Part shown: positions 3,827 through 58,195 of the stretch, piece after piece
How the letters are laid out: each line of letters starts with the position of its first letter
Position numbering within the stretch: position 1 is the stretch's first letter
From: Acidobacteriota bacterium
GTDB taxonomy: Bacteria > Acidobacteriota > Terriglobia > UBA7540
Direction: 5' to 3'
Length of the DNA stretch: 63,916 nucleotides
Assembly: GCA_021828285.1 (NCBI GenBank)
Contig: JAKASG010000005.1
Coordinates: 1 to 63,916, forward strand
Translations under genes and position numbers: made by a program
Notes under the pieces: model-generated
What the model was told of the DNA's origin: nothing
The model's database searches: none
The model's input: only the letters and a program-made list of their open reading frames with translations

Positions 3827-8485
<4,659 letters not shown>

Positions 8486-42542: not shown

Positions 42543-43652
42543 ATGAAAAAATCCCCTGACCCGGAGCTTTCAGGGTATCCTAGTAAGGAGCGGTTGGAAA
42601 GCATTTCCCCCGCGGACATTGCCATGAAGTACTCCTACATCGCCAAGTGCGCGGTCAAGCATCTCTGGTCGGGCTTTAAGCTGCCCTACATGACGATGTT
42701 TGAGACGACGCTGATGTGCAATATGTTTTGCGAATACTGCATCTTTGGCGAGGAAGGGAAGTTCAACGACCTGAAGTCGCGTGCCGAACGCGAGCGCATT
42801 TTCAAGCGCATTGATGAGATGGTGGACCTTGGAGTTTTCGCGCTCAGCTTTTCGGGCGGCGAGCCACTGCTCAATCCCAATACCTGCGACTACATCGCTT
42901 ATGCGGCGGACAAAGGCATGTGGACTTCCATGCCGACGAATGGCTTGCTGATTCGCAAGTACGCCGACGGGATTGCGCGGCTCGACATGCTCGAAGTCTC
43001 CATTGACTCGCTCAATCCCGAGCGATTCGCCAAGCGCCGCGGAATCAACGGGCTTCCCAAAATCATTGAGAACCTGGAATTCGTGCTCACCAAGCGGAAG
43101 CCGTTTACGACCCAAATCAATGCCGCGGTCAATCTGGAAAATCTCAATGATTTGCCTGAGCTTGCCAATTTCGCCAAACAACACGACATCGTGCTGCATC
43201 CTGAGGCCGTTCACAATGTCATGAGGGCTGGCGAATTACTTCCTGATTGCGAATTGCACGGGGCGGAAATTGACCGCGTCGAGCAGGCCTTGCGCGCCCT
43301 GCGTACTGCTTTTCCGAAGAATGTGCGCTTCTATTCTCATTATTACGACTTCTATCGTAAGGGCGGTTTTGGGCCCCACTTCCCGTGCCGCCACCCTTCA
43401 AAACTTATTTCTATGAAGCCTGACGGCGCCATCCACCTCCCGTGCGCCTTTTACACCCTGTTCAAGTCCCAAACCCCTCTTAAAGAAATCTTCGCCTCGG
43501 AAGAAGCTCGCAAAATTATTTCCCAGGAAAAGACGCTTTGGGATTTTTGCAAAGGCTGCAAGATCGGCTGTCCGTACGAAGTAAGCGCCTTCACAAACAG
43601 TCCAATGCTCGCGGTTAAGTCTGCTTTGAACTTCCTAAGGCTCAGTGAGTAA
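42543..43652 (+). CDS. Radical SAM protein with C-terminal cysteine cluster
   Basis: The 369-residue protein has the 4Fe-4S/SAM motif C59-x3-C63-x2-C66 (CNMFCEYC), the GGEP motif (FALSFSGGEPLLN), and SIDSLNPERFAKRRG. A C-terminal set of five cysteines (CRHPS, CAFY, CKGCKIGC) probably binds an auxiliary cluster, in the manner of SPASM/Twitch domains. The layout recalls lipid-acting HpnH-like enzymes and peptide-modifying SPASM enzymes; neither is certain. It is followed by a sigma-54 promoter and a lipid/polyketide-type operon, so a role in that pathway is plausible, although it has its own transcription start. Confidence 0.85.
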   Translation: MKKSPDPELSGYPSKERLESISPADIAMKYSYIAKCAVKHLWSGFKLPYMTMFETTLMCNMFCEYCIFGEEGKFNDLKSRAERERIFKRIDEMVDLGVFALSFSGGEPLLNPNTCDYIAYAADKGMWTSMPTNGLLIRKYADGIARLDMLEVSIDSLNPERFAKRRGINGLPKIIENLEFVLTKRKPFTTQINAAVNLENLNDLPELANFAKQHDIVLHPEAVHNVMRAGELLPDCELHGAEIDRVEQALRALRTAFPKNVRFYSHYYDFYRKGGFGPHFPCRHPSKLISMKPDGAIHLPCAFYTLFKSQTPLKEIFASEEARKIISQEKTLWDFCKGCKIGCPYEVSAFTNSPMLAVKSALNFLRLSE

Positions 43653-43701
43653 TTACCGGTTTCCGCGGCATGGAGATATTCAAAAACTCTTCGTGCTGGA
43701 C

Positions 43702-43716
43702 GTATCAATTTGACAC
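43702..43716. promoter_or_regulatory. Upstream repeat 1 (GTATCAATTTGACAC)
   Basis: First of two identical 15-bp sites. Each is a near-palindrome, GTATCA-N3-TGACAC, with one mismatch between the arms. Start-to-start spacing to the second copy is 33 bp, about three helical turns, as expected for an activator oligomer bound on one face of DNA. It lies 115 bp upstream of the -24 element. An alternative is the relic end of an IS21-type element, whose ends also carry repeated motifs. Confidence 0.6.
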
Positions 43717-43734
43717 TAAACCGCTCGTAAGAAT

Positions 43735-43749
43735 GTATCAATTTGACAC
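43735..43749. promoter_or_regulatory. Upstream repeat 2 (GTATCAATTTGACAC)
   Basis: Second identical copy of the 15-bp site, 81 bp upstream of the sigma-54 -24 element and within the normal range for an enhancer-binding protein. The surrounding DNA is much richer in A and T than the flanking genes, which would help DNA bending. Confidence 0.6.
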
Positions 43750-43830
43750 AGTAAGACCATGTGTTCTATCATAATCTCCATTTTTATTTGTAAGTGTATT
43801 GTTTGCTATAGATTAATTGCAAATTTGGAA

Positions 43831-43846
43831 TGGCACGAGGATTGCA
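43831..43846 (+). promoter_or_regulatory. Sigma-54 promoter (TGGCAC-N5-TTGCA)
   Basis: The sequence TGGCACGAGGATTGCA is a full consensus match for sigma-54 (RpoN): GG and GC are separated by exactly 10 bases. Transcription would start about a dozen bases further on, some 35 bases before the GTG of the receiver gene. Sigma-54 promoters need an ATP-driven activator; two repeats upstream give possible sites, and an NtrC-type activator is encoded at 55.2-56.6 kb. Confidence 0.85.
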
Positions 43847-43890: not shown

Positions 43891-44286
43891 GTGGGCTCGA
43901 CAAGAGTATTGGTTGTTGATGACGACGCTGAAAGCCGTGAGCTGGTGGCGGAAGTTCTCGTGGCAAACGGCTACGTCGTGGATTCCGTGGAAAACGCGGC
44001 TGCGGCGCGTGCTGCCGTGGATCAGGACGGCGCCTACAACGTTGTGATTGCGGATGTGAAGATGCCGAAGGAAACAGGCTTGGAACTCATGCGGAATCTT
44101 CGCCAGCATAATTTCAAGCAGAGCATCATACTGATGTCCTCGTTTATGACAGGGCGAGAACGAGAGCTTGCGGAGCAGATGGGAGCGGAGGCGCTCTTGG
44201 AAAAGCCCTTCAGGCTTACCGAGCTTCTGCGCGCCGTCGAAGAGGCGGTTGCCAAACAAACGCAAGAGCTCGGCTTGGCGAACTGA
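43891..44286 (+). CDS. Stand-alone response regulator receiver protein
   Basis: The 131-residue protein is a single REC domain with no output domain. It has the acidic pocket (RVLVVDDDAE), the phospho-acceptor aspartate at residue 55 (VVIADVKMP), and the conserved lysine in LLEKPFR. The start is the GTG at 43891, which has AGGTGA 8 bases upstream; the longer upstream reading would run through the sigma-54 promoter. It is the first gene behind that promoter, so phosphorelay input may feed into the pathway by protein contact and not by DNA binding. Confidence 0.88.
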   Translation: MGSTRVLVVDDDAESRELVAEVLVANGYVVDSVENAAAARAAVDQDGAYNVVIADVKMPKETGLELMRNLRQHNFKQSIILMSSFMTGRERELAEQMGAEALLEKPFRLTELLRAVEEAVAKQTQELGLAN

Positions 44287-44338: not shown

Positions 44339-44629
44339 ATGGAAGTTGCCGACAAGGTCATCGAAATCATCACGCGCGAGCAGCATCTTGAGCCGGGTAA
44401 AGTCACCATCGACTCGAGCTTCGAGGAGTTAGGCATTGATTCTCTCGATGGCGTGAACATCCTGTTTGCCGTCGAAGAAGAATTCAAGATTGACATCCCT
44501 GATGCCGTGGCTCAGAACATGAAGAGCGTGCGCCAGGTGGTGGACGCTCTGACCCGTGTGCTCGAAGGAAAGGACATCTCGGACCTGGTCGCCCTGAGCA
44601 AGGGAAGCGCGCCCGCGCCGGGCAATTAA
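44339..44629 (+). CDS. Acyl carrier protein
   Basis: A 96-residue acidic carrier protein with the phosphopantetheine-attachment serine at residue 35 in ELGIDSLDGVNILFAVEEEF. It differs from housekeeping AcpP in carrying a longer C-terminal tail (KDISDLVALSKGSAPAPGN) and DSLDGV in place of DSLDTV. It stands with a ketosynthase 28 bases downstream, so it is probably a dedicated carrier for this operon. Unlike housekeeping acpP, it is not next to fabD, fabG or fabF. Confidence 0.93.
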   Translation: MEVADKVIEIITREQHLEPGKVTIDSSFEELGIDSLDGVNILFAVEEEFKIDIPDAVAQNMKSVRQVVDALTRVLEGKDISDLVALSKGSAPAPGN

Positions 44630-44657: not shown

Positions 44658-45890
44658 GTGCGCAGAGTCGTTATTACCGGTGTCGGTTTGATCGCTTCCA
44701 CGGGGAAGAACGCGGAAACTTTTTTCCGCAACCTGCTGGAGGCGCGTTCCGGTGTTCGGCGCATCTCGCAGTTCGATCCATCGCCTCTTTCGATTCAGAT
44801 TGCCGCCGAAGTGCCCGACTACAGCCCCACGGATTATTTTCCTGCGAAGCGCCTCGACCTTCTCGACCGGTTTTCGCAGTTTGCTTTAATCGCCGCGAAA
44901 GAAGCGGTGACTTCAAGTGGTCTTGAAGTTTCGGAAGCGGAGCGTCCTCGCTTCGGCGTGGTGATTGGGACGGGCATGGGCGGCGCAGGGACGTTCGAAA
45001 CGGGATATTACAACCTGTTCGCGCAGCAGGCGACGCGGCTCCATCCGTTCACGATTCCTAAAATCATGCACAACGCAGCGACTTCCCAGGTCTGCATGGA
45101 ATTTGGCGCGCAGGGTCCCTCGCTCGCGATCGCGACGGCTTGCTCGTCTTCGGGCCACGCGCTCGGCGAGGCGTTCCACTTCATCAAGCACGGTACGGCC
45201 GAAGTGATGCTGGCCGGCGGAAGTGACGCGCCGATTACTTACGGGATGCTTCGATGCTGGGAGTCCGTGCGCGTTCTGGCTTCGGGGAACGGCGATCCGC
45301 GGGCGGCCTGCCGTCCGTTTTCCGCCGACCGTGACGGAATGGTGATCGGCGAAGGCGCGGGCATTCTGGTGCTCGAGGAATACGAACACGCGAGGAAGCG
45401 CGGGGCAAAAATTTACGCGGAACTCGCGGGCTACGGCCTCAGTTCCGATGCCTGCCACATCACGCAGCCGAGCATTGACGGTCCCGCTCGCGCCATCCGC
45501 ATGGCCCTCGGCGAGGCGGAGGTTGCGCCCGAGCAAGTGGATTACATCAACGCGCACGGGACGGGAACGAAGCTCAACGACGCGACGGAGACGGCCGTCA
45601 TTAAGGAAGTCTTCAAGGAGCACGCGCGGCGCCTCTTCATCAGCTCGACCAAATCCATGCACGGACACACGATGGGCGCGACGGGCGCGATTGAAATGGT
45701 GGCAACTGTCCTCGCGCTCGACCGCGGGCTGATTCCGCCCACCGCGAATTACACGGCGCCCGATCCGGAATGCGATCTCGACTACGTGCCGAATACGGCC
45801 CGCGAAAAGCCCATCCGGATTGCGCTCTCCAATTCTTTCGCGTTCGGCGGTTTGAACGCCGTGCTGCTCGTGCGGCGCATGGAAGGTTAG
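44658..45890 (+). CDS. Beta-ketoacyl-ACP synthase, FabF-like
   Basis: The 410-residue condensing enzyme has the nucleophile cysteine in IATACSSSGHALGEAF and the two catalytic histidines in INAHGTGTKLND and SMHGHTMGATGA, so the Cys-His-His triad is intact and it should condense malonyl-ACP with an acyl chain. The start is GTG with GAGGAGCCAAG upstream. No ketoreductase or dehydratase gene follows; reduction either uses housekeeping enzymes or does not occur. Confidence 0.93.
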   Translation: MRRVVITGVGLIASTGKNAETFFRNLLEARSGVRRISQFDPSPLSIQIAAEVPDYSPTDYFPAKRLDLLDRFSQFALIAAKEAVTSSGLEVSEAERPRFGVVIGTGMGGAGTFETGYYNLFAQQATRLHPFTIPKIMHNAATSQVCMEFGAQGPSLAIATACSSSGHALGEAFHFIKHGTAEVMLAGGSDAPITYGMLRCWESVRVLASGNGDPRAACRPFSADRDGMVIGEGAGILVLEEYEHARKRGAKIYAELAGYGLSSDACHITQPSIDGPARAIRMALGEAEVAPEQVDYINAHGTGTKLNDATETAVIKEVFKEHARRLFISSTKSMHGHTMGATGAIEMVATVLALDRGLIPPTANYTAPDPECDLDYVPNTAREKPIRIALSNSFAFGGLNAVLLVRRMEG

Positions 45891-45930
45891 CAGGCGCGAT
45901 GTGACGGGCCGCCCGGGAGGCGGTGCAGAG

Positions 45931-47118
45931 ATGAAGATTCGCAGAGTCGCCATCTTGACTTTGAGTGTTGGCGCGGGACACTTGCGCGCGGCCGAAGCGG
46001 TCCATCGGGCCGTTTACGCGGGCGGCGATGATGTCGATGCGCGGACCATTGACCTGCTCAAGCACTCGAGCCGGTGGTTTCTCGCCGTCTATGTGACGAC
46101 GTACTGGCAGATGCTTCGCCGCGCGCCCTGGATGTGGCGCTGGTTGTTTATCCGACGCCAGAAGAAGATGCACCGCAAGACGGCGCCGTGGTGGATCTTC
46201 CGGCGGGGGTGCCGCGCGGCGCTCGAGCAGTTGAAAACGCTTGCGCCGCATCTTGTGATAGCGACGGAGGTGGGCGCCGCGGAATTCGCGGCCATGGCCC
46301 GGCGCGGAGGGTGGTTCGACGCGCCCATTATTGCGGTGCAAACCGATTTTTATACCGAGCCCCCCTGGGTGCAGCCGGAAATTGACGTTTACTGTGTGGC
46401 GAGCGAGGAAGCGAAGTCGCAACTGATTAGCTGGGGCGTTTCCTCGAACCGGGTTGTGACCTGCGGAATCCCCGTAGACTCCGCCTTTGCTCTGCGCTTC
46501 GATCGCGCCGAACTGTTCCAGGCTCTGGGTCTTGACGCCGGGCGGCCTGTGGTGCTCGTGATGGGCGGAGGGATGGGCCCGGCTCCGCTCGATCAGATCG
46601 TCGAGCGCTTGGCTTTCTGCCGGCAGCCGCTTCAGGTGCTGGCCGTCGCCGGCAACAACCGGGAATTGCGCGCGCGCCTCGAGGCGCTGCGTGGGCGGGT
46701 CATGCTCGACTTGCACGTTTTCGGATGGACCGACAAAATTCCTGAGCTGATGGCTGTGTCCAACCTCCTGATCACCAAGCCGGGTGGCGTGACGGCTGCC
46801 GAAGCCCTAGCTGTGGGATTGCCCATGGTCCTGACGCATCCTATTCCTGGGCCGGAAGAGCTGCACCTGCGTTACCTGGCCGAGCGTGCCGTGGCGGTCG
46901 AGGCAAAATCGCTTAATGAGATTCCAGGAGTGGTCTCCGCCTTGCTCGCTGACGGCGCTGCACTCAAGCGGATGACGCAGCAGGCCCGCGAAGCGGCCCG
47001 CCCCGATGCCGCTTTTGCTGTTGCTCAAATCGCTCGCGCCGTCCTCGAGAAAGGGACGTATATCGACCTGCTGGCTTCGCCTACCCTCCGGCCGGACGAG
47101 TCCATCTTTGTAATGTGA
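45931..47118 (+). CDS. GT28/MGDG-synthase-like glycosyltransferase
   Basis: The 395-residue protein has the MGDG-synthase N-terminal signature (ILTLSVGAGHLRAAEAVHRA), an internal FYTEPPWVQPEIDVYCVASE segment, and the C-terminal GT-B donor-binding motif (LITKPGGVTAAEALAVGLPM). Relatives transfer a sugar from a nucleotide sugar to diacylglycerol or another lipid. GGGAGGCGGTGCAGAG precedes the ATG at 45931. With the ACP and ketosynthase next to it, glycosylation of an acyl product is a reasonable inference, but the acceptor is unknown. Confidence 0.88.
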   Translation: MKIRRVAILTLSVGAGHLRAAEAVHRAVYAGGDDVDARTIDLLKHSSRWFLAVYVTTYWQMLRRAPWMWRWLFIRRQKKMHRKTAPWWIFRRGCRAALEQLKTLAPHLVIATEVGAAEFAAMARRGGWFDAPIIAVQTDFYTEPPWVQPEIDVYCVASEEAKSQLISWGVSSNRVVTCGIPVDSAFALRFDRAELFQALGLDAGRPVVLVMGGGMGPAPLDQIVERLAFCRQPLQVLAVAGNNRELRARLEALRGRVMLDLHVFGWTDKIPELMAVSNLLITKPGGVTAAEALAVGLPMVLTHPIPGPEELHLRYLAERAVAVEAKSLNEIPGVVSALLADGAALKRMTQQAREAARPDAAFAVAQIARAVLEKGTYIDLLASPTLRPDESIFVM

Positions 47119-47235: not shown

Positions 47236-48552
47236 ATGCTCAGTGAGATTCGCCAATTCGTCGAGCGCAAAGTGATCGGTGATTCGATTCCGTCGCTCGT
47301 GCGCTGGGGCAAAAGCGTGCCGCCAGGCCTTATGCGGCGGCTGCAGGCGGAGGAGTTCCGCAAGGTGATTCGATACGCGGCGGCGCGCCAGAAGTTTTTC
47401 CGGCACAAGCTCGGCGAGGCGGGCGTTGACCCGGGGAGTGTGCGCGGTCCTGAAGATTTGGGCGAAATTTTTACCACTCCTGAAGACTTGATCACGCTGC
47501 CTGCTGAGGATTTTCTCTGCCGTGAGCCGCAGGCGGTTTTTGAAACGACCGGCACGTCGGGAGGACCGAAACACGTCTACTTCAGCTACGAGGAGCTCGA
47601 CTTTGCGGCGCGCTATCAGGCGGCTGCGTTGTGGGAAAGCGGCGTGCGGCCCGGCGACCGCGCCTTGTGCACTTTCGACGCCGGCTACTGGATCAGCAGT
47701 TGGGTCACGTTCCTTGCCGCAAAGCAGATAGGAGTTTTCTGCTCGGCGATTGGCAAGCCTGCGCCCGCGGAAGTTTTCGAGCGCCTTCGGCTCTATCGTT
47801 ATAACGTCCTCCTTGCCGACCCGACCTGGCTGGTTAGCTTGAGCGAAATCGCCGAATCGCAGGGCGCTCTGCCGATGAAATTCATTTTCGCCGCGGGCGA
47901 CCGCATGACCAGCGCCTATCGCGACTACGTGCAGAAGGTGTGGCATGCGCCCGTGATTTTGGGCTACGGCTCGACGGAAATGGGCGGCGGGGCGGGAATG
48001 GAATGCCGCGCACGGTCGGGATACCACCTCGACGATTACAACATGCTCTTTGAAATCCTCAACCCGGACCCGGAGGGTTACGGGGAACTCGTGATGACGA
48101 CGCTCTCCCGGCGCACGATGCCGCTCATCCGCTATCGGGTCCGCGATGTGGCGCGCTGGATTCCGGAGCCTTGCCCCTGCGGAGCGCCTCTGCGGCGCAT
48201 CAGCCCCATCCGCGGCCGGCGCGACGAAATGGTTGTGATGGGTGCGGGCAATATGCATCCCGAAATCTTTGAGAACGTGATGCGGGGCGTGGAGGGGATC
48301 GAGGAAAACTGGCAGGTTGCCGTCCGCCAGGAAGGCGTCCACGACATTCTGGAGTTCCGGCTCCAGCTTTCGAACGGCCGCGAGCCCGAGGCGGTCGAAC
48401 GCCGCGTGCGCGAGAATCTCGAAAAGCGATATCCGGAGATTTGGGCGAACCACACGTGCGGAATGTACCGGATGGCTTTCCGGTTTCTTCCGCCAGGAAG
48501 CCTGCCTTTGGGCCGCAAGCCTAAGCGATTGGTGGATGAGCGAGCGGGCTAA
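47236..48552 (+). CDS. Adenylate-forming enzyme, PaaK/CapK family
   Basis: The 438-residue protein has the nucleotide-binding loop TTGTSGGPKHVYFSYEEL, the motif ILGYGSTEMGGGAG, and a C-terminal lid (RGRRDEMVVMGAGNMHPEIF). PaaK relatives make aryl-CoA thioesters; CapK-type members occur in surface-polysaccharide loci. A CPCGAPLRRI segment, probably metal-binding, is common in this family. It could load an acid onto CoA or onto the ACP encoded upstream. The 117-base gap before it has no clear promoter, and GGATTGAAAG may be its ribosome binding site. Confidence 0.88.
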   Translation: MLSEIRQFVERKVIGDSIPSLVRWGKSVPPGLMRRLQAEEFRKVIRYAAARQKFFRHKLGEAGVDPGSVRGPEDLGEIFTTPEDLITLPAEDFLCREPQAVFETTGTSGGPKHVYFSYEELDFAARYQAAALWESGVRPGDRALCTFDAGYWISSWVTFLAAKQIGVFCSAIGKPAPAEVFERLRLYRYNVLLADPTWLVSLSEIAESQGALPMKFIFAAGDRMTSAYRDYVQKVWHAPVILGYGSTEMGGGAGMECRARSGYHLDDYNMLFEILNPDPEGYGELVMTTLSRRTMPLIRYRVRDVARWIPEPCPCGAPLRRISPIRGRRDEMVVMGAGNMHPEIFENVMRGVEGIEENWQVAVRQEGVHDILEFRLQLSNGREPEAVERRVRENLEKRYPEIWANHTCGMYRMAFRFLPPGSLPLGRKPKRLVDERAG

Positions 48553-48635: not shown

Positions 48636-48706
48636 GATTGATTGTCATTCTAGCGCAGGGACCGGGCGGATGTGAAGAAGTTTTTTCTTTTTTTGTGAAA
48701 GAAATT

Positions 48707-49474
48707 ATGGCGGGTAATCGGACCAATCCAACACGGCCTGCCGTCTTCTGCGATTTCGACGGCACCATTACTCAGGGGGATGTGACGGACCGCATTCTCG
48801 AGGAATTGGCTGCGCCCGATTGGCGCGCCCTGGAGGACGAATGGGTGCGTGGGAGAATCGGTTCACGCGAATGTCTGGAACGACAGATGGCGCTCGTGGA
48901 CGCGTCGGAAGACCAGATCAATGCGCTGATTGACGCGGTTCCGATTGATCCGGGCTTCGCCGGGTTTTACCGGTTCACTCGCGCGCGCCGCATCCCGCTC
49001 TACGTTGTCAGTGACGGCTTCGATTACATCATTCGCCGCGTGCTGAGGCGTTCGGGCATGGAAGGGCCGCTCGAGAACGGCTCGCACCTGTTTTCGAGCG
49101 CGCTCCAGGTACAGAACCGGCGACTGAGCGCATCGTTTCCAGCGCCGCCCTGCGAGCACGGCTGCGCCACGTGTAAGGCGGAAGTGATTGAACGCATCGG
49201 CCGGGCATATGATCCGGTGATCTTTGTCGGAGACGGCCTTTCCGACCGTTACGCCATCGGCCTGGCAGAAATCGTTTTCGCAAAGAACCAACTGCTCGAT
49301 TACTGCCGCAATCACGATCTCGCGTGCAGGCCGTTTGAAACTTTCGCTGATATCCAGGCGGCGCTCAGCGATTCGGCGACCTCGCGCGAGATGGAAACCG
49401 GAAAACATCTCACGCCAAGGAGCCAAGGCGCAGAGCCGGGTGGAGTGGCCCGGCGTTATTCGGGTGAAAAATGA
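48707..49474 (+). CDS. HAD-IB phosphatase, MtnX-like
   Basis: The 255-residue protein has the HAD nucleophile motif FCDFDGTITQGDVTD, motif II in LYVVSDGFDYIIRR, and motif IV in VIFVGDGLSDRYAI. A cysteine-rich stretch (PPCEHGCATCKAEVI) is typical of the MtnX branch and may bind zinc. MtnX acts in methionine salvage, but no other salvage genes are here, so the substrate is probably different. The ATG at 48707 puts the HAD motif near the N terminus; its ribosome binding site is weak. Its stop overlaps the next start as ATGA. Confidence 0.87.
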   Translation: MAGNRTNPTRPAVFCDFDGTITQGDVTDRILEELAAPDWRALEDEWVRGRIGSRECLERQMALVDASEDQINALIDAVPIDPGFAGFYRFTRARRIPLYVVSDGFDYIIRRVLRRSGMEGPLENGSHLFSSALQVQNRRLSASFPAPPCEHGCATCKAEVIERIGRAYDPVIFVGDGLSDRYAIGLAEIVFAKNQLLDYCRNHDLACRPFETFADIQAALSDSATSREMETGKHLTPRSQGAEPGGVARRYSGEK

Positions 49475-50862
49475 GCTTAACTGACAACGTGACCAGAACG
49501 GCGGAATTGCTCGAGCTCGAGCGGGAATACTGTTCGCGGGGAGATACGGTCCACTATCTCGAGCCGCCCAAAGTGTTCGTTCGCTCGGAAGGAAGTTATC
49601 TTTACGACGAACAGGGCACGCCTTACCTGGACCTGCAGATGTGGTATTCGGCCGCAAGCTTTGGCTATGGAAACGGGCGGCTCAACGACGCCCTCAAGCG
49701 TCAATTGGATCGGCTCCCCCAGCTTGCATGTCAGTACTTGCACGCGGAGAAGATCGAAGTCGCGGCGCGCATCGCGCAGTATTGCGAAAAGCGATTCGGC
49801 GTAAAAGGCCGCGTCCACTTCAACGTCGGCGGTTCGCAGGCGATTGAAGATTCGCTTAAAATCGTGCGCAACTATACGGGAAGGAATTTGATGTTCGCTT
49901 TCATGGGCGGCTATCACGGACGCACGCTCGGCGCCACGGCCATTACGTCGAGCTACCGCTATCGCCGCCGCTACGGGCACTTCGGCGAACGGGCGCAATT
50001 CGTTTTCTATCCGTATTGCTACCGCTGTATCTACGACAAGAAAGTCGAAACCTGCGGGCTTTATTGCGAAGAGCAGTTCGAGAAATTGTTCGATTCCGAA
50101 TATTACGGCGTCTGGGATTCGAAGGCGAAAGCATCGGAATACGGCGCGTTCTATATTGAAGCGGTGCAGGGAACCGGCGGTTACGTCATCCCGCCGCGCG
50201 ATTATTTCAAACGGCTCGCGGAAACCTGCCGGAAACACAAAATCCTCGTCGTCGCCGATGAAATCCAGATGGGTTTTTATCGCACAGGGAAATTCTGGGC
50301 GATCGAGCACTTCGATATCGTTCCCGACATCATCGTCTTCGGCAAGGCGCTGACGAACGGACTGAATCCGCTTTCGGGACTGTGGGCGCGCGAGGAGCTG
50401 ATCACGCCGGAACTGTTCCCGCCCGGCTCGACGCACTCGACTTTTTCATCGAACACGCTCGGGACGGCCGTGGCGCTCGAAGCGCTGAAAATGATGGAAG
50501 AGAGTGATTACGAGCAGGTCGTGGCGGAAAAGGGCGCCTATCTGCTCGAAGGATTGCGCCGCCTTCAGAAAAAGCATCCCAAGCGCATCGGCAACGTCGA
50601 AGGGCTCGGCCTCGCGTTGCGCCTGGAAGTGACCCAGCCCGACGGTTATTTGCCCGACCGCGAACTTACCGACCGAATTTTCGCCGCAGGCCTCGCGGGC
50701 GATCTCGACGCGCGCGGCCGGAAAATGGGCCTGGTGCTCGACGTGGGCGGATATTTCAAGAACGTGTTTACGCTCGCACCCTCCTTCACCATCACGAAGG
50801 AAGAGATGGATCTCGCCATCGAACTGCTCGACCAGCTCTTCACGCGCTCTGCTTCCGCATGA
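49471..50862 (+). CDS. Class-III PLP aminotransferase
   Basis: The 463-residue protein has the PLP lysine in DIIVFGKALTNGLNPLSG, the preceding ILVVADEIQMGFYRTGKFWA, and VHFNVGGSQAIEDSLK for cofactor phosphate binding. The class-III fold aminates omega-amino acids, acetylornithine, aldehydes or ketones. An unusual insertion with several cysteines and tyrosines (YPYCYRCIYDKKVETCGLYC) lies near residues 186-206. ATGA overlap with the phosphatase gene shows translational coupling, so the two enzymes likely act on consecutive intermediates. Confidence 0.92.
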   Translation: MSLTDNVTRTAELLELEREYCSRGDTVHYLEPPKVFVRSEGSYLYDEQGTPYLDLQMWYSAASFGYGNGRLNDALKRQLDRLPQLACQYLHAEKIEVAARIAQYCEKRFGVKGRVHFNVGGSQAIEDSLKIVRNYTGRNLMFAFMGGYHGRTLGATAITSSYRYRRRYGHFGERAQFVFYPYCYRCIYDKKVETCGLYCEEQFEKLFDSEYYGVWDSKAKASEYGAFYIEAVQGTGGYVIPPRDYFKRLAETCRKHKILVVADEIQMGFYRTGKFWAIEHFDIVPDIIVFGKALTNGLNPLSGLWAREELITPELFPPGSTHSTFSSNTLGTAVALEALKMMEESDYEQVVAEKGAYLLEGLRRLQKKHPKRIGNVEGLGLALRLEVTQPDGYLPDRELTDRIFAAGLAGDLDARGRKMGLVLDVGGYFKNVFTLAPSFTITKEEMDLAIELLDQLFTRSASA

Positions 50863-50963: not shown

Positions 50964-53900
50964 ATGGATCGGCGGAGATGGCTCGCTGCGGCGAGCGTAC
51001 TGCTCGCAGCGCGAGGGCTCAGCGCGAGGAGTTCGCCCGCGCCCGCGCAGATTGCGCGCGAATACGGGCGTCTGCCGCTTGCCTTCACGCCGAATCACGG
51101 CGTGACCGACCCACGCGTCAAGTTTTTCGCCCTTGGCCATGGATACACAATTTTTCTCAGCCGAAACGGCGCCGTGCTCCGATTCGCCGCCGGCAAGAGA
51201 TTCGATGCATCGAGCCCAGGAATGGAAGGCGGGAGCCCCGTCGGCGCGCTCCGAACCGTGAAAATCGGCCGAGCGGCCAAGTCGGCGCGCCTTACCACTC
51301 ATCGCTTGCCGCTTGCTCCAATCGCCCTGCAACTGACCCTCGCGGGGGCGAACCCAATCGCGCAGATTAAGGGCGTTCAGAAGCTGCCCGGGCGAACGAA
51401 TTATTTGGTCGGCAACGACCCTTCCAAGTGGCGCACAAACTTGCCGGCTTATGCGAAGGTTCATTACGCGAACGTCTACCCCGGCATTGATTTGGATTTT
51501 CACGGCAGTCGTTCAGCAAACGGAAGTCTGGAATTCGATTTTGTCGTCGCGCCCGGCGCAAACCCGAATGCCATTACGTTTGCAATAGCACCTCTCACGA
51601 TGCGAGGCGTGAAGCGGGGGCAGGGAATCGAAAGCCGTCCGTCAGACCCCAAAGGGCTCGAACCCGAGACGAATCATCAGCCATTCCGAATGAGAATTGA
51701 CGCTGATGGCGATTTGGTGATCGAGACCGCGGAAGGTAAAATTCGAATCCTCAAGCCTCTCGCGTATCAAGATGCAGAAGCCGTTCGGAATAGCGAAGGC
51801 CGTCGTGCCCGCAAACTTCGCCTTGGAGAGGAGGCGCCGGGAATCCCCGATTCAAAGCGAATTCCCGCTCGATTCGTTCAATTCAAACATGGCAAAGTCC
51901 GATTTGAAATCGGGAAATACGATCCCACAAAGTCTCTCGTGATCGATCCGGTCCTCTCGTACTCGACCTTTCTCGGCGGGAGCGACATGGATTACGCGAC
52001 GGCAATCGCCGCGGACGGCTCCGGCAATGTTTATGTCGCGGGCTATACCGGTTCACTCGATTTTCCGATCGCCGGCGCAGTCGAGGGGCAGGGCACGGGC
52101 GGAGTTTGCAGCAACGCGCTCAGCACGTCGCCCTGTTTCGACGCCTTCATTGCAAAGCTGAATGCCACTGGAACAGCGCTCGTTTACTCAACGTATTTGG
52201 GCGGCTCGGCGGACAATGAGGCGACGGGAATTGCTGTGGACGGCGCCGGAAACGCTTACGTCGCGGGATTCACGGACTCTTCGGATTTTCCCGCCGTGAA
52301 CGCGTTTGAAACGTCGCTCGGCGCGGGGACCTGCGCGGACTCGTCGCCCTATCCGTGCTACGACGCTTTTGCCGCGAAGCTCGACGCCGCGGGCTCGGCG
52401 CTCAGCTACTCAACACTGCTCGGTGGCAGCCTCGACGACTACGGAACTGCGATTGCCGTTGATAAATTCGGAAACGCCTACGTCGCGGGCCTCACCGACT
52501 CGACGGATCTACCGACGACGGCCGGGGCGTTTCAACAGGTTTATCAGGGAGGGAATTACGATGGGTTCGTCGTGAAGTTGGGGCCCTCCGGCGGCGCGCC
52601 GATTTATGCGACCTACCTGGGCGGGAGCGGGGAAGATCACGCAAATGCGATCGCCGTGGACTCCGCGGGCGATGCCTTCGTCACCGGCCAGACGAACTCG
52701 GATAATTTCCCGGCCGTCAACGCTTTTGAGAATTCGTACACGGGCGGCGCGTGCGGTTGCTTCGACGCATTTGTCACGGAAGTCAATCCCACGGGCACTG
52801 GACTCGTTTATTCAACTTACCTCGGCGGAGGGGGAGGGAATTACGGGAACGCCATCGCCATTGATGCCGCGGATGAAGCTTTCGTCGCGGGGTGGACGAC
52901 ATCTTCCGACTTTCCAGTAACGGCAGGCGCATTCCAAACTCACTACAGCGGCACCTACGACGCGTTCGTGGCGAAGCTTGCCGCGGGCGGCGGCTCACTC
53001 GTTTACTCAACGTTTTTTGGCGGAATCAATCCGGATGAAGCCGCGGGCATCGGACTCGACGCCTCGGGCGAAGCGACGATAACCGGATGGGTAGATGGCG
53101 CGGGCTTGCCCTCTGTGAATGCCATCCAATCGAGCGCCGGCAGCTACTACAATGCGTTTATTGCGCGATTCACTGCTTCCGGCTCGGGACTTGTGTGTGC
53201 AACCGTGCTGGGCGGCAGCGGAAACAATTTTGGAACGGCGATTGCCGTGGATTCCGCGGGGAACGCGGACGTTGCGGGCGCAACGTTTTCGACCGATCTT
53301 CCCATCACGCCCGAGGCTTTCCAGAGGATATACGGTGGCGGCGGCTATGACGGTTTCGTCGCCCAAATTGCACCGGGGAACGCCGCGGCACTAGCTGTCG
53401 CGCCAGGCTCGCTCATTTTCCCCGGGCAAGCCGTGGGGACAACGAGCACGGCGGCCGTGCTCAAGTTGATGGACGCAGGAAGCGCTCCGCTCGATTTGAA
53501 TGGAGTGAGCGTGACCGGCGACTTCGCGCTCACCTCGAAAACCGGGGCTTGCGGGAGTTCGCTTGGCGCCGGCGCCGCTTGCGCGATCGGCGTTAAATTT
53601 ACGCCCACCACTCCCGGGTTGCGGACCGGGCAGCTCCAGTTTTCCGACAATGCCGCGGGCAGTCCGCAGAGCGTTCAGCTCTCCGGTCTAGCGACGAGCG
53701 GCGATGCGATCCTATCCGTGCACAGCTTGAGTTTCGGTTCCGTTACGGTAGGCGCAGTCAGCGCGGGCCAGAGCGTGACGCTGACGAATGCCGGACCCGG
53801 CGTGCTCGACATTTCAAGCATCATCGCGACGGGCGACTTCTCTGGAGCCAACGATTGCGCCAGCTCGCTGGCCGCAAACGCCAGTTGCACGATCAACGTC

Positions 53901-55139
53901 GAGTTCGCGCCGACCGCTGATGGGGTGAGCGTGGGCGGCTTGGAGATTAATGACACAGCGCCGGGCAGCCCGCAGTCGGTCGCGCTTTCGGGAACCGGAG
54001 TCTCTCCTTCGGTCAGTCTATCGCCGGCGAGCCTCAGTTTCGGCGATCAGGGCGTCTCGACAGCCAGCGCCGCGCAGACGGTCACGCTGGCAAACACCGG
54101 CACGGGCATCCTGAATATTTCAAAGATCTCCGTCACGGGCAATTTCTCGGAGACGACTGCCTGCCCGGCGAGCCTTGCTTCCGGAGCGAGTTGCACGATC
54201 GGCGTGAAGTTCACGCCGTTAGCCGCAGGTGCAACATCGGGAGCGCTCGCGATTACGGATAACGCGGCGGGCAGCCCGCAATCCGTCGCGCTTTCGGGAA
54301 CGGGCGTGACAGCTTTCGCTCTAGCGGCCGAAAGCCCTTCGGTAACGATTCTCCGGGGAAGCAATACGGCTTCGTTCACTCTCTCGGCCTCAAGCGCTTA
54401 CGGCTTTACCGGCGCGATTGGTCTTGCCTGTTCGAACGCTGGAGCCTCAAGCTGTTCCTTCAATCCCTTGAGCATTGCTCCCGGCGCTTCGAGCACGCTG
54501 ACCATCCAAGGTCTTTCCTCAGTTGGAGCGAGCAGCGTGAGCTTCACGGTGAGCGGAACGAATGGGTCACAAACTGTTACGCTTCCGATCGAAATTCAAT
54601 TTGCCGATTTCACGATCGCGGCCCAGCCTGGCGCCATGACGGTCGCAGCCGGGCAAATTGCCGGCGCCACCCTGACGCTCGCATCAGTGAATGGGTTCAG
54701 CCAATCGGTTTCCCTCGCTTGCAGCGGGGAGCCTGCGCAATCGACTTGCAGCATATCGCCCGCCGCGGTCACTCCGACCGCAAGCGGAGCGGCCGCAACA
54801 CTCACTGTGACGACGAAGGCCTCTTCGTCCGTGCCGCCGTTTGGCCGGCGCCATTCCGCGCCCCTCGGAAGTCCTTGGGTGTGGGTATGGGTCCCCGCGG
54901 CCCTCGCGATCATGGGATCTCTTTCGAGGGCGAGGCGCGCTCGAAGCTTCGGGCGTGGCCGTGCTGCGCGCGCGCTCACGCTTGCTTTGCTTGCTGCGGC
55001 TCTCGCCGGATGCGGCGGCGGCGGAGCAGCTCCGGATCCTAAAACTCCGGGAACTCCCGCGGGGACCTACACCCTCACCGTGAACGCTACGTCGGGAACG
55101 CTCGCGCACTGCGCAACCATCACGCTGACGGTGGATTGA
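50964..55139 (+). CDS. Large secreted SBBP-repeat/choice-of-anchor D protein
   Basis: A 1391-residue exported protein. After a signal peptide (RRWLAAASVLLAARGLSARS) and a conserved N-terminal region typical of acidobacterial SBBP proteins, about eight SBBP beta-propeller repeats run from about residue 330 to 800 (YSTFLGGSDMDYATAIAADG; units contain GNVYVAGYT). Three choice-of-anchor-D/ASH-like domains follow (SLSFGDQGVSTASAAQTVTL), then Ig-like segments. Near residues 1310-1349 are a hydrophobic stretch (WVWVWVPAALAIMGSL), a basic stretch and a lipobox-like LAAALAGC, followed by a final short beta segment. Such proteins are presumed surface or matrix components. Confidence 0.88.
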   Translation: MDRRRWLAAASVLLAARGLSARSSPAPAQIAREYGRLPLAFTPNHGVTDPRVKFFALGHGYTIFLSRNGAVLRFAAGKRFDASSPGMEGGSPVGALRTVKIGRAAKSARLTTHRLPLAPIALQLTLAGANPIAQIKGVQKLPGRTNYLVGNDPSKWRTNLPAYAKVHYANVYPGIDLDFHGSRSANGSLEFDFVVAPGANPNAITFAIAPLTMRGVKRGQGIESRPSDPKGLEPETNHQPFRMRIDADGDLVIETAEGKIRILKPLAYQDAEAVRNSEGRRARKLRLGEEAPGIPDSKRIPARFVQFKHGKVRFEIGKYDPTKSLVIDPVLSYSTFLGGSDMDYATAIAADGSGNVYVAGYTGSLDFPIAGAVEGQGTGGVCSNALSTSPCFDAFIAKLNATGTALVYSTYLGGSADNEATGIAVDGAGNAYVAGFTDSSDFPAVNAFETSLGAGTCADSSPYPCYDAFAAKLDAAGSALSYSTLLGGSLDDYGTAIAVDKFGNAYVAGLTDSTDLPTTAGAFQQVYQGGNYDGFVVKLGPSGGAPIYATYLGGSGEDHANAIAVDSAGDAFVTGQTNSDNFPAVNAFENSYTGGACGCFDAFVTEVNPTGTGLVYSTYLGGGGGNYGNAIAIDAADEAFVAGWTTSSDFPVTAGAFQTHYSGTYDAFVAKLAAGGGSLVYSTFFGGINPDEAAGIGLDASGEATITGWVDGAGLPSVNAIQSSAGSYYNAFIARFTASGSGLVCATVLGGSGNNFGTAIAVDSAGNADVAGATFSTDLPITPEAFQRIYGGGGYDGFVAQIAPGNAAALAVAPGSLIFPGQAVGTTSTAAVLKLMDAGSAPLDLNGVSVTGDFALTSKTGACGSSLGAGAACAIGVKFTPTTPGLRTGQLQFSDNAAGSPQSVQLSGLATSGDAILSVHSLSFGSVTVGAVSAGQSVTLTNAGPGVLDISSIIATGDFSGANDCASSLAANASCTINVEFAPTADGVSVGGLEINDTAPGSPQSVALSGTGVSPSVSLSPASLSFGDQGVSTASAAQTVTLANTGTGILNISKISVTGNFSETTACPASLASGASCTIGVKFTPLAAGATSGALAITDNAAGSPQSVALSGTGVTAFALAAESPSVTILRGSNTASFTLSASSAYGFTGAIGLACSNAGASSCSFNPLSIAPGASSTLTIQGLSSVGASSVSFTVSGTNGSQTVTLPIEIQFADFTIAAQPGAMTVAAGQIAGATLTLASVNGFSQSVSLACSGEPAQSTCSISPAAVTPTASGAAATLTVTTKASSSVPPFGRRHSAPLGSPWVWVWVPAALAIMGSLSRARRARSFGRGRAARALTLALLAAALAGCGGGGAAPDPKTPGTPAGTYTLTVNATSGTLAHCATITLTVD

Positions 55140-55207: not shown

Positions 55208-56572
55208 TCAATGCCGCACGCTCCATCGCTCGAGCATGCGGTAAAGCGTCCTGCGGCTGATCCCGAGCACCTGGGCAGCGTCGCTCTTATTGTCGCGCGT
55301 GGCTTTGAGAACGTGGAAAAGATAGCGCCTCTCCAGCTCTTCAAGGGACGGCAAGTCGGAATAAAGCGGCGCAACCGCGTCGGCCGGCGCTGCCGCTCCG
55401 CGGACTTTTGCGGGAAGATCATCGAGCGCAATGACCCCCGTGCGATTGAGAGCTGCCGCAGACTCAATCGCATGTTCGAGCTCGCGGACATTCCCCGGCC
55501 AGGAGTATGCCTCAAGAGCGGAAAGAGCTTCCTGGGAAACCCCGAGCTTCCGCCCGGCCTCCTGGCCCAGGCGGCCGAGCGTATGCTCGATGAGCAGCGG
55601 AATATCCTCGCCGCGTTCGCGCAGCGGGGGGAGATCAATTTCAATGACGCGCAACCGGTAATAGAGGTCTTCACGAAACTTCCCCTGGGCCACCAGCTCG
55701 GCGAGATTGCGATTCGACGCGGCGATCACACGAACGTCAATCTTGACAGGCTGCGCGCTGCCGACAGGGCGCACTTCCTGCTCTTCCAGCGCGCGAAGCA
55801 GCTTCACCTGAAGCCCAGGGCTCATCTCGGAAACCTCGTCGAGAAAAACCGTGCCGGCGCTCGCGTCGCCGAAAATGCCACTGGTGGTCGCAGTCGCTCC
55901 GGTGAAGGAACCGCGAACGTGGCCGAAGAGCTCGGATTCGAGCAGCGATTCCGTGAATGCGCCGCAGTTGACAGCAAGAAACTTCCGCCCGGCGCGAGGG
56001 CTGTTCGCTTGGATGGCGCGGGCCACGAGCTCCTTGCCAGTTCCGCTCTCGCCATAAATCAGCACGGTCGAGCGGGTCGCCGAGACCATAGCGATTTTTT
56101 TGTAGATTTCAAGCATGGGTCCGCTTCGCCCGACCAGCATCGAAAGCGATGGGGCAGCGCGGGGAGGCGGTTCGGGCGGTTGCTGGCGGACCAAGTCCCG
56201 ATGATCGAGTGCCCGGCGCACATGGAGCAGGACATCCTCGATCTTGAAGGGCTTTGAAAGATAATCGAACGCGCCGGCCTTCACGGCTTCGACGGCGGTT
56301 TCGAGCGAGCCGAAGGCGGTGATAAGAATGACTTCCGAATCCGGCTGGACGTTTTTGTACGCTCGCAAGACGTCAAGGCCGCTCTGGTCCACGCCGAGGC
56401 GCATGTCGCTGATGATGACCTGGAAGCGCTCCTGCTTGCTGATGGCGAGCGCCTGCTCGGCGTCAGCCGCCGTGGTGACGCGGTAACCCTCCTCGCCCAG
56501 GATCTCGAGCAGGAGTTCTCTCGTATCCGAATCGTCATCTACGACCAGAATGTGCGCGTTCGAGGTGGACAT
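55208..56572 (-). CDS. NtrC-family sigma-54 response regulator
   Basis: The 454-residue activator has an N-terminal receiver with phospho-acceptor aspartate at 56 (QVIISDMRLG), an AAA+ domain with Walker A GESGTGKELVARAIQ, the sigma-54 contact loop as GSFTGAT where GAFTGA is usual, Walker B TVFLDEVSEM, and a C-terminal Fis-type helix-turn-helix (SDAAQVLGISRRTLYRML). It drives transcription from -24/-12 promoters by ATP hydrolysis. It lies 27 bases behind its kinase on the same strand. The only sigma-54 promoter I found in the window is the one at 43.83 kb, a candidate target. Confidence 0.94.
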   Translation of the reverse strand: MSTSNAHILVVDDDSDTRELLLEILGEEGYRVTTAADAEQALAISKQERFQVIISDMRLGVDQSGLDVLRAYKNVQPDSEVILITAFGSLETAVEAVKAGAFDYLSKPFKIEDVLLHVRRALDHRDLVRQQPPEPPPRAAPSLSMLVGRSGPMLEIYKKIAMVSATRSTVLIYGESGTGKELVARAIQANSPRAGRKFLAVNCGAFTESLLESELFGHVRGSFTGATATTSGIFGDASAGTVFLDEVSEMSPGLQVKLLRALEEQEVRPVGSAQPVKIDVRVIAASNRNLAELVAQGKFREDLYYRLRVIEIDLPPLRERGEDIPLLIEHTLGRLGQEAGRKLGVSQEALSALEAYSWPGNVRELEHAIESAAALNRTGVIALDDLPAKVRGAAAPADAVAPLYSDLPSLEELERRYLFHVLKATRDNKSDAAQVLGISRRTLYRMLERWSVRH

Positions 56573-56599: not shown

Positions 56600-58195
56600 C
56601 TAGACCGGCGAGTGCGCAGGCGCTTCGCGCGCTGCTTCAGCTTCGACGGTGTGTGGAGGGCCTTCGAGCGGCAGCAGAAGCGTGAAGCACGTGCCCCGTC
56701 CCGGCTCGCTCTCGGCGCGAATCGTTCCCCCATGCTGGCGGATGATCTGTTCGCATATTGCAAGGCCGAGGCCCGCGCCCGCGCCGATTCGTTTGGTGGT
56801 GAACATCGGCTCGAAGATTCGCGCCAAGGCATCGGGCGGAATGCCGACGCCCGAGTCCTCAATCTCAATCCGCACCTGGCTCGGACGTTCGAGCGATGGG
56901 CCGCGCACACGCGCAATCAGCCGGCCGCCTTGCGGCAACGCGTCGAGCGCATTGTTGATGAGGTTCAAAAAAACCTGCTGGAGATAACCGGGGTCGCCTT
57001 CGATGCGCGGGCACGATTTGTCCCATTCCGTTTCCACGCGGATTTTGCGGCGCTGAAGCGTGGGCGAGGAAAGCAGCAGCGATTCCTCGAGCAGGCGACG
57101 GAGGTCCACAGGCTCGAACCGGAGGTCGAATTGGCGCGTCCAGGAAAGAAGTTGCTTGACGGTGCGGACGATGCTCTCGATCTGGCGCTCGATGATCTGG
57201 AGCCGGCGGGCCGAAGAGGCGTCGCCGCTTTTCTGCCGGCCCAGCAGTTGAACGTGCCCGGAGATGGAATTGAGTGGCGTGCCGATCTCGTGCGCGAGGC
57301 TCGCCGCGAGCTGGCCCGCAATGGCAAGCCGCTCCGAGCGCGCCAGCGTCTTCTGCGTCTCGAACAGCTCCTGGTTGATTCGCCTCAGCTCCTCGTTGCG
57401 GCGCGCGAGTTCCGCTGTTGCGTCCTCGACCTTGCGATTCAGCTCCGTGCTGAAATTCTCAATGCGCTCGAGCATTCGATTGAGGTGTCCGGCAAGCTGG
57501 CCGACTTCGTCGCCGCTCGAAACTCGCGCGCGCCGGTCAAGCTCGCCTTGCTGCGCGCGTTCCATTACGCGGATCATTTCTTTCACCGGCCTGCGAATTT
57601 CACGCAGGAAGAAAACGTGAATCACCAGAATCACCGCGCCCAGGCTGAGCAGCAGCAGGACCAGGTCCTGGCCGACCAGTTGCCAGGTCACGGCGTTGAG
57701 CGGCGACTTTGAAACTTTCAGGATCAGCGAGCCCACTTTCCGTCCGTTGCTGTGGATCGCCGTGCTGATGATCCAATACCGCCCGCCGGGAGTTTCAATA
57801 CTCATTTGATTCGCGTTGGGTTTGAAGTAAGCGTTTGCGTGCCGAACGTTCGGAAGCGCGTCCAGCTCGACGAGTTCGCTTTTGGGATTGGTGGTGGCGA
57901 GCAGTTGTTTCTGCGGAACCTGTGCGTAGACGGACGCCTGCTTTACCCCCGGAAACGCGCGCTGGGCGTCGCGCAGCGAATGCAAAAGGGTTTGCGGAGT
58001 TTGGAGCTGGCCGTTGTTGACCAGTTGATGCGCCGTCAGCTCAGCCTGGACCAGAGCCTTGCGATAGATTTCCGCCTCAATGGGATCGCGCGTAAGCCAA
58101 AGGGCAAAATACGTCGAGACGGCGGCCACCAGCATGACGGTGAGGCCTGTCAAAAGGATGATTTTGGCTTGCAGACTGAGGCGCGAAACCCGCAT
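56600..58195 (-). CDS. Sensor histidine kinase
   Basis: The 531-residue membrane kinase has one transmembrane helix near the N terminus (IILLTGLTVMLVAAVSTYFA), an extracytoplasmic sensor of about 140 residues with no motif I recognise, and a second helix (LVLLLLSLGAVILVIHVFFL). HAMP and a coiled coil follow, then the H box with phospho-histidine in ASLAHEIGTPLNSISGH, the N box LINNALDALPQGG, and the G boxes DSGVGIPP and GAGLGLAICEQ. It probably phosphorylates the adjacent NtrC-type regulator. The stand-alone receiver in the sigma-54 operon is a possible second partner. Confidence 0.94.
   Translation of the reverse strand: MRVSRLSLQAKIILLTGLTVMLVAAVSTYFALWLTRDPIEAEIYRKALVQAELTAHQLVNNGQLQTPQTLLHSLRDAQRAFPGVKQASVYAQVPQKQLLATTNPKSELVELDALPNVRHANAYFKPNANQMSIETPGGRYWIISTAIHSNGRKVGSLILKVSKSPLNAVTWQLVGQDLVLLLLSLGAVILVIHVFFLREIRRPVKEMIRVMERAQQGELDRRARVSSGDEVGQLAGHLNRMLERIENFSTELNRKVEDATAELARRNEELRRINQELFETQKTLARSERLAIAGQLAASLAHEIGTPLNSISGHVQLLGRQKSGDASSARRLQIIERQIESIVRTVKQLLSWTRQFDLRFEPVDLRRLLEESLLLSSPTLQRRKIRVETEWDKSCPRIEGDPGYLQQVFLNLINNALDALPQGGRLIARVRGPSLERPSQVRIEIEDSGVGIPPDALARIFEPMFTTKRIGAGAGLGLAICEQIIRQHGGTIRAESEPGRGTCFTLLLPLEGPPHTVEAEAAREAPAHSPV

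Follow-up and report, generated by a model that had tools for sequence, protein, structure and literature searches.

The question raised by this locus was whether two identical 15-bp repeats in front of a sigma-54 promoter are the sites of an enhancer-binding protein, as was favored by the original prediction, or the remnant of a mobile element. The window, that is, the whole analyzed stretch of 63,916 nucleotides from an uncultured Acidobacteriota bacterium, was compared with 34 relatives of the same family, giving 35 genomes together with the source genome. Based on the sequence comparisons, the two repeats very probably represent the upstream activating sequence of the sigma-54 promoter and are bound by the activator encoded at 55208-56572.

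The paired sites, the promoter and the operon

The 15-mer GTATCAATTTGACAC was found in two exact copies, at 43702-43716 and 43735-43749, separated by the predicted 33 bp from start to start. Pattern searches over the entire source genome (2.97 Mb, 92.7% complete) recovered no other exact copies; three more places matched with two mismatches, and the wider form TGTNNCANNNTGNNACA was present in the genome only at 43734. The repeats had been described as the near-palindrome GTATCA-N3-TGACAC. They are palindromic indeed, but the true length is 17 bp, TGTATCA-ATT-TGACACA. The proximal predicted activator site TGTATCAATTTGACACA (43734-43750, plus strand) pairs six of the seven arm positions. It scored 19.6 bits with a matrix trained without the window's own genus, when the shuffle maximum was 14.8, and it was the top-scoring place across the whole window. 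The distal predicted activator site CGTATCAATTTGACACT (43701-43717, plus strand) is an exact repeat of the proximal one within the 15-mer core, lacks the flanking T and A of the 17-bp palindrome and scored 11.4 bits with the family matrix.

The -24/-12 element TGGCACGAGGATTGCA occupies positions 43831-43846 on the plus strand and fits TGGCACG-N4-TTGCW perfectly, as one of only three exact matches in the genome. A consensus match alone proves nothing, because 25 genome positions matched with at most one mismatch, compared with 42 for the reversed control pattern; it is the position and the conservation that decide. The element lies upstream of a gene, a GG-N10-GC element was found at the same place in the family, and a sigma-54 gene (rpoN) is present in the source genome (PF04963 match, E 3.4e-58). 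The predicted consensus element was thus confirmed in the sequence. The 17-mers precede the -24 element by 97 bp (proximal) and 130 bp (distal), measured from start to start. The distances given originally, 81 and 115 bp, are gaps, of which the first was right and the second amounts to 114 bases.

The sites are flanked by a radical-SAM protein gene (42543-43652; PF04055, synteny) and by the first gene of the operon, which encodes a single-domain, CheY-like response regulator (43891-44286; PF00072) and likely starts with GTG at 43891. These and all the following operon genes are located on the plus strand. The response-regulator gene is followed by the genes of an acyl carrier protein, ACP (44339-44629; PF00550, the same order in relatives), a FabF-type beta-ketoacyl-ACP synthase II (44658-45890; NCBIfam TIGR03150, above the cut-off), a glycosyltransferase resembling MGDG synthase and diglucosyl-diacylglycerol synthase (45901-47118; PF06925, NCBIfam NF010135 below the cut-off), a PaaK-like AMP-dependent ligase (47236-48552; PF00501, NCBIfam NF045666 and FlxY below the cut-offs), an MtnX-like HAD-IB phosphatase (48638-49474; NCBIfam TIGR01489, above the cut-off) and a class-III aminotransferase (49471-50862; PF00202, synteny), the last operon gene kept throughout the family. 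The operon probably yields a lipid, glycosylated or amino-modified, or a lipid-like compound. The next gene (50964-55139), directly after the operon, encodes a large protein of the SBBP beta-propeller and ASPM/choice-of-anchor-D type, in which a putative anchoring domain forms the C terminus; a similar protein follows the operon in the g11 and g13 relatives.

Conservation and spacing in relatives

Orthologues of the response-regulator gene were present in 34 of the 36 other genomes of the family, and the response regulator/ACP/FabF operon with a -24/-12 promoter and a related 17-bp palindrome was found in most family genomes. The commonest form of the palindrome was TGTGGCA-N3-TGCCACA. Of the 35 genomes, 30 had a palindrome of at least 15 bits in front of the orthologous operon, against an expectation of 0.1, and 24 reached a -24/-12 score of at least 8, against an expectation of 1.1. 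When matrices were trained without the genus being scored, every genus had at least one member with a site at p ≤ 0.01. In the weakest genus, g7, one member out of three reached this level. The exact sequence TGTGGCANNNTGCCACA was detected in 11 of 39 genomes, mostly as a single copy at the operon locus, with no matches to the reversed control. The exact paired 15-mer was found in no other species, because the site has diverged by lineage; that of the window is a lineage variant of TGTGGCA-N3-TGCCACA. The original prediction had named the loss of the repeats beside a retained promoter as evidence against regulation. The comparison with relatives revealed the opposite, as both the promoter and the sites were kept. 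This agrees with what is expected of an upstream activating sequence of an NtrC-type activator, namely palindromic, often paired sites about 80-250 bp upstream that are retained in orthologous loci.

The response-regulator gene was absent from one relative, G062 (L119, 6409-6650). There, the next gene after the site and the promoter is that of the ACP, and the -24 element precedes it by 98 bp. Such an arrangement suggests that the promoter serves the biosynthetic genes, although it may be a misassembly. Outside the family, the genomes G052 and G059, which belong to another family, have kept the response regulator, and no site of the TGTGGCA-N3-TGCCACA kind was found before the operon. Repeated TGTCC-type words (TGTCCCATTTTGTCC) were observed there before a TGGAAG-N5-ATGCT element (L237, about 7350-7500, and the matching part of L238), possibly a diverged enhancer of that lineage.

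No wide regulon was seen in the family. The family motif was nearly unique per genome and usually located at the operon locus. Three genomes carried additional exact copies of the family consensus (L039, L047, L049, L050 and L044/L120), none of which had a convincing promoter at the usual distance. For the source genome, too, the pattern searches point to a single target promoter and not to a wide regulon.

Across the family, the spacing between the site and the promoter follows the DNA helix. The distances from the site start to the -24 element clustered near 91, 102, 113 and 124 bp, and the Rayleigh test for a period of 11 bp gave a p of about 4e-7 (n = 32 genomes). After near-duplicates within genera were thinned, p was 1.6e-4 (n = 20), with periods from 10 to 11.5 bp tried and some of the thinned values still related by descent. 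The distances in the window, 97 and 130 bp, are about half a turn off the phase of most relatives, and its two sites are three helical turns from each other. A second, distal palindrome about 260 bp upstream of the -24 element was observed in several relatives (G002, G034, G009, G016 and others). It lies about 147 bp (14 turns) farther upstream than the proximal one, as against the 33-bp pair of the window.

The conservation bears directly on two other explanations of the repeats. IS21-family ends carry multiple terminal repeats, and the original prediction had allowed that the pair was the remnant end of an IS21-type element lying beside the promoter by chance. However, the 15-mer has no further exact copy in the genome, the IstB-family matches were weak and partial, of a type that turned up in 13 of 14 control genomes too, and throughout the family the site has been inherited in front of the orthologous operon, in helical register. 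Since the genome (92.7% complete) yielded neither another element end that matched the repeats nor a convincing IstB gene, the assignment to an IS21-family end was rejected, and such an origin is hardly credible. A chance duplication beside a chance -24/-12 match would agree with the finding that one-mismatch matches to the promoter consensus are no commoner in the genome than those to the reversed control, yet it leaves unexplained two exact, genome-unique 15-mers 33 bp apart and the conservation of the sites and the promoter across the family. A coincidence of this kind is extremely improbable. The layout of an enhancer-binding protein, as originally proposed, was strongly supported by the conservation and the helical register in the family, and also by the linkage and covariation described below.

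The candidate activator and its recognition residue

The NtrC-type sigma-54 activator proposed to bind both sites is encoded at 55208-56572 on the minus strand and consists of a PF00072 receiver, a PF00158 AAA+ domain and a PF02954 Fis-type HTH. The adjoining gene (56600-58195, minus strand) encodes a HAMP-containing sensor histidine kinase, the proposed partner of the activator (PF00672, PF00512, PF02518). The combination of a receiver, a sigma-54 AAA+ domain, a Fis HTH and an adjoining kinase is that of an NtrC-type two-component activator. Orthologues of the activator with 63-70% identity occur through the family, as do orthologues of the kinase, and the two genes adjoin in all relatives for which both were available. 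In ten relatives, the activator gene, the radical-SAM gene, the site with the promoter and the response-regulator operon follow in sequence on one strand, with the kinase gene coming first wherever the contig extends far enough; the radical-SAM gene lies between the activator gene and the promoter in many relatives. In the window, the kinase-activator pair is located at the opposite end of the cluster, the activator gene being 11 kb from the sites.

In nine relatives, another copy of the palindrome, which is missing from the window, precedes the kinase gene by 41-53 bp. Its presence there suggests autoregulation by the activator, possibly of a sigma-70 promoter. These kinase-gene palindromes (L086, L091, L094, L097, L101, L104, L246, L247 and L250) showed no obvious -24/-12 element.

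The recognition helix of the activator starts with Ser439-Arg440, and residue 439, which follows Gly-Ile in the HTH, varies within the family. It is Asn or Asp in the 21 genomes with a best site that lacks T at ±4, and Ser or Thr in the 11 genomes with T there; the window belongs to the Ser/T variant. Hence, residue 439 predicted the ±4 base of the best site in 32 of 32 genomes (Fisher p 8e-9). It was the only variable column of the activator that separated the ±4 trait perfectly, and it ranked first. Because the covariation was noticed in the data before testing, the column ranking and the structural match outweigh the Fisher p. In an activator tree built without the HTH, both traits changed four times. 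Independent pairs agreed with the association, four on all branches and two on the well-supported ones, which is too few for a sign test. In a wider set of sites, two exceptions were recorded in Asn/Asp genomes and three among the weaker sites of Ser genomes. As a natural case of a regulator and its site, the covariation is unusually clear.

The structural match comes from the Fis nucleoid protein. Residue 439 aligned with Fis Asn84, and the invariant Arg440 with Fis Arg85. Crystal structures of Fis bound to DNA show Arg85 in contact with the G at ±7 and Asn84 in contact with ±4, where it disfavors thymine through a methyl clash (PMC4784862). Position 2 of the 17-mer corresponds to -7, the most conserved base, and position 5 to -4. 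The likeness to Fis is claimed for the contact position only, as the thymine preference does not have the same strand sense as in Fis. We proposed, with a confidence slightly better than even, that residue 439 may be a natural specificity switch of NtrC-type activators, in which Asn or Asp goes with G-C and Ser or Thr with T-A at ±4, and that this code flipped about four times in one family while the single main target promoter was kept.

The palindromes could instead be bound by another regulator, whether a second NtrC-type protein or one encoded by some other gene. The source genome has genes for at least four further proteins that resemble the activator, and the activator gene does not adjoin the sites in the window. 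Against this stand the linkage of the activator and the operon in ten relatives, the motif before the kinase gene in nine, and the covariation of the recognition helix of the 55208-56572 protein with the site, a test that covered this protein alone. Binding by another regulator is therefore considered quite unlikely, and the protein at 55208-56572, the regulator which the original prediction had pointed to, is the best candidate.

Proposed mechanism and comparison with known systems

The sites, the promoter, their conservation, the linkage and the covariation are results of the computational analysis. By analogy with the protein family, the following sequence of events is proposed, including the binding as a dimer, phosphorylation, oligomerization, looping and an activating rather than a repressing role. 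The membrane kinase (56600-58195) would phosphorylate the activator (55208-56572), which would bind each 17-bp palindrome as a dimer via the Fis-type HTH, with Arg440 reading the G at ±7 and Ser439 accommodating T-A at ±4. The activator would then form an AAA+ oligomer, loop over about 100 bp and drive open-complex formation by the sigma-54 RNA polymerase at 43831-43846. The transcribed operon would comprise the genes of the response regulator, ACP, FabF, glycosyltransferase, AMP ligase, HAD phosphatase and aminotransferase. Judging from the relatives, the activator and its landing site probably changed together during evolution.

A candidate activator, a site and a target promoter can now be named for an operon of uncultured Acidobacteriota that had not been described before. 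Few studies have addressed sigma-54 control in this phylum. The activator and the kinase offer a handle on when the lipid-type product is made. Further, the natural Asn, Asp, Ser and Thr series, each with its own enhancer, makes the DNA-recognition rules of NtrC-type activators testable by swaps.

Systems of this kind have been described before. In the literature searched, no precedent was found for the lineage, the target or the clear residue-base covariation, and the motif letters together with sigma54 gave no match (most subscription journals lie outside that search). NtrC/AtoC/ZraR-type systems share the receiver, the AAA+ domain with sigma-54 interaction, the Fis-type HTH, the adjoining histidine kinase and the pairs of palindromic sites roughly 100 bp upstream of a -24/-12 promoter. 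The activator was not assigned to AtoC, NtrC or ZraR proper, as the NCBIfam scores (417 of 714, 403 of 559 and 385 of 760 bits, respectively) were below the cut-offs. In contrast to those systems, the site here is TGTGGCA-N3-TGCCACA or its TGTATCA variant, and the target is an ACP/FabF/glycosyltransferase/aminotransferase operon. Fis itself, with a 15-bp core site, is alike in its homologous HTH, the A/T-rich center of the site and the contacts of the recognition-helix Arg with the G at ±7 and of the preceding residue with ±4. However, Fis is not a sigma-54 activator; here, the residue before the Arg varies (Asn, Asp, Ser, Thr) with the ±4 base.

Comparative genomics has served to reconstruct one-operon sigma-54 regulons, both in Clostridiales (PMC6615313) and in Desulfovibrio (PMC4641369), and according to the excerpts of these reports, 65% of the activators have a single target operon. 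The same excerpts describe motifs of the TGT...ACA type, multiple sites, distances of 100-250 bp from the promoter and activator genes near the target, all of which resemble the present case. The differences are the lineage, here Acidobacteriota, the two-component architecture, when theirs are mostly one-component, the other target genes and the residue-base covariation, which was observed here and is not reported in the excerpts for those regulons (PMC6615313, PMC4641369).
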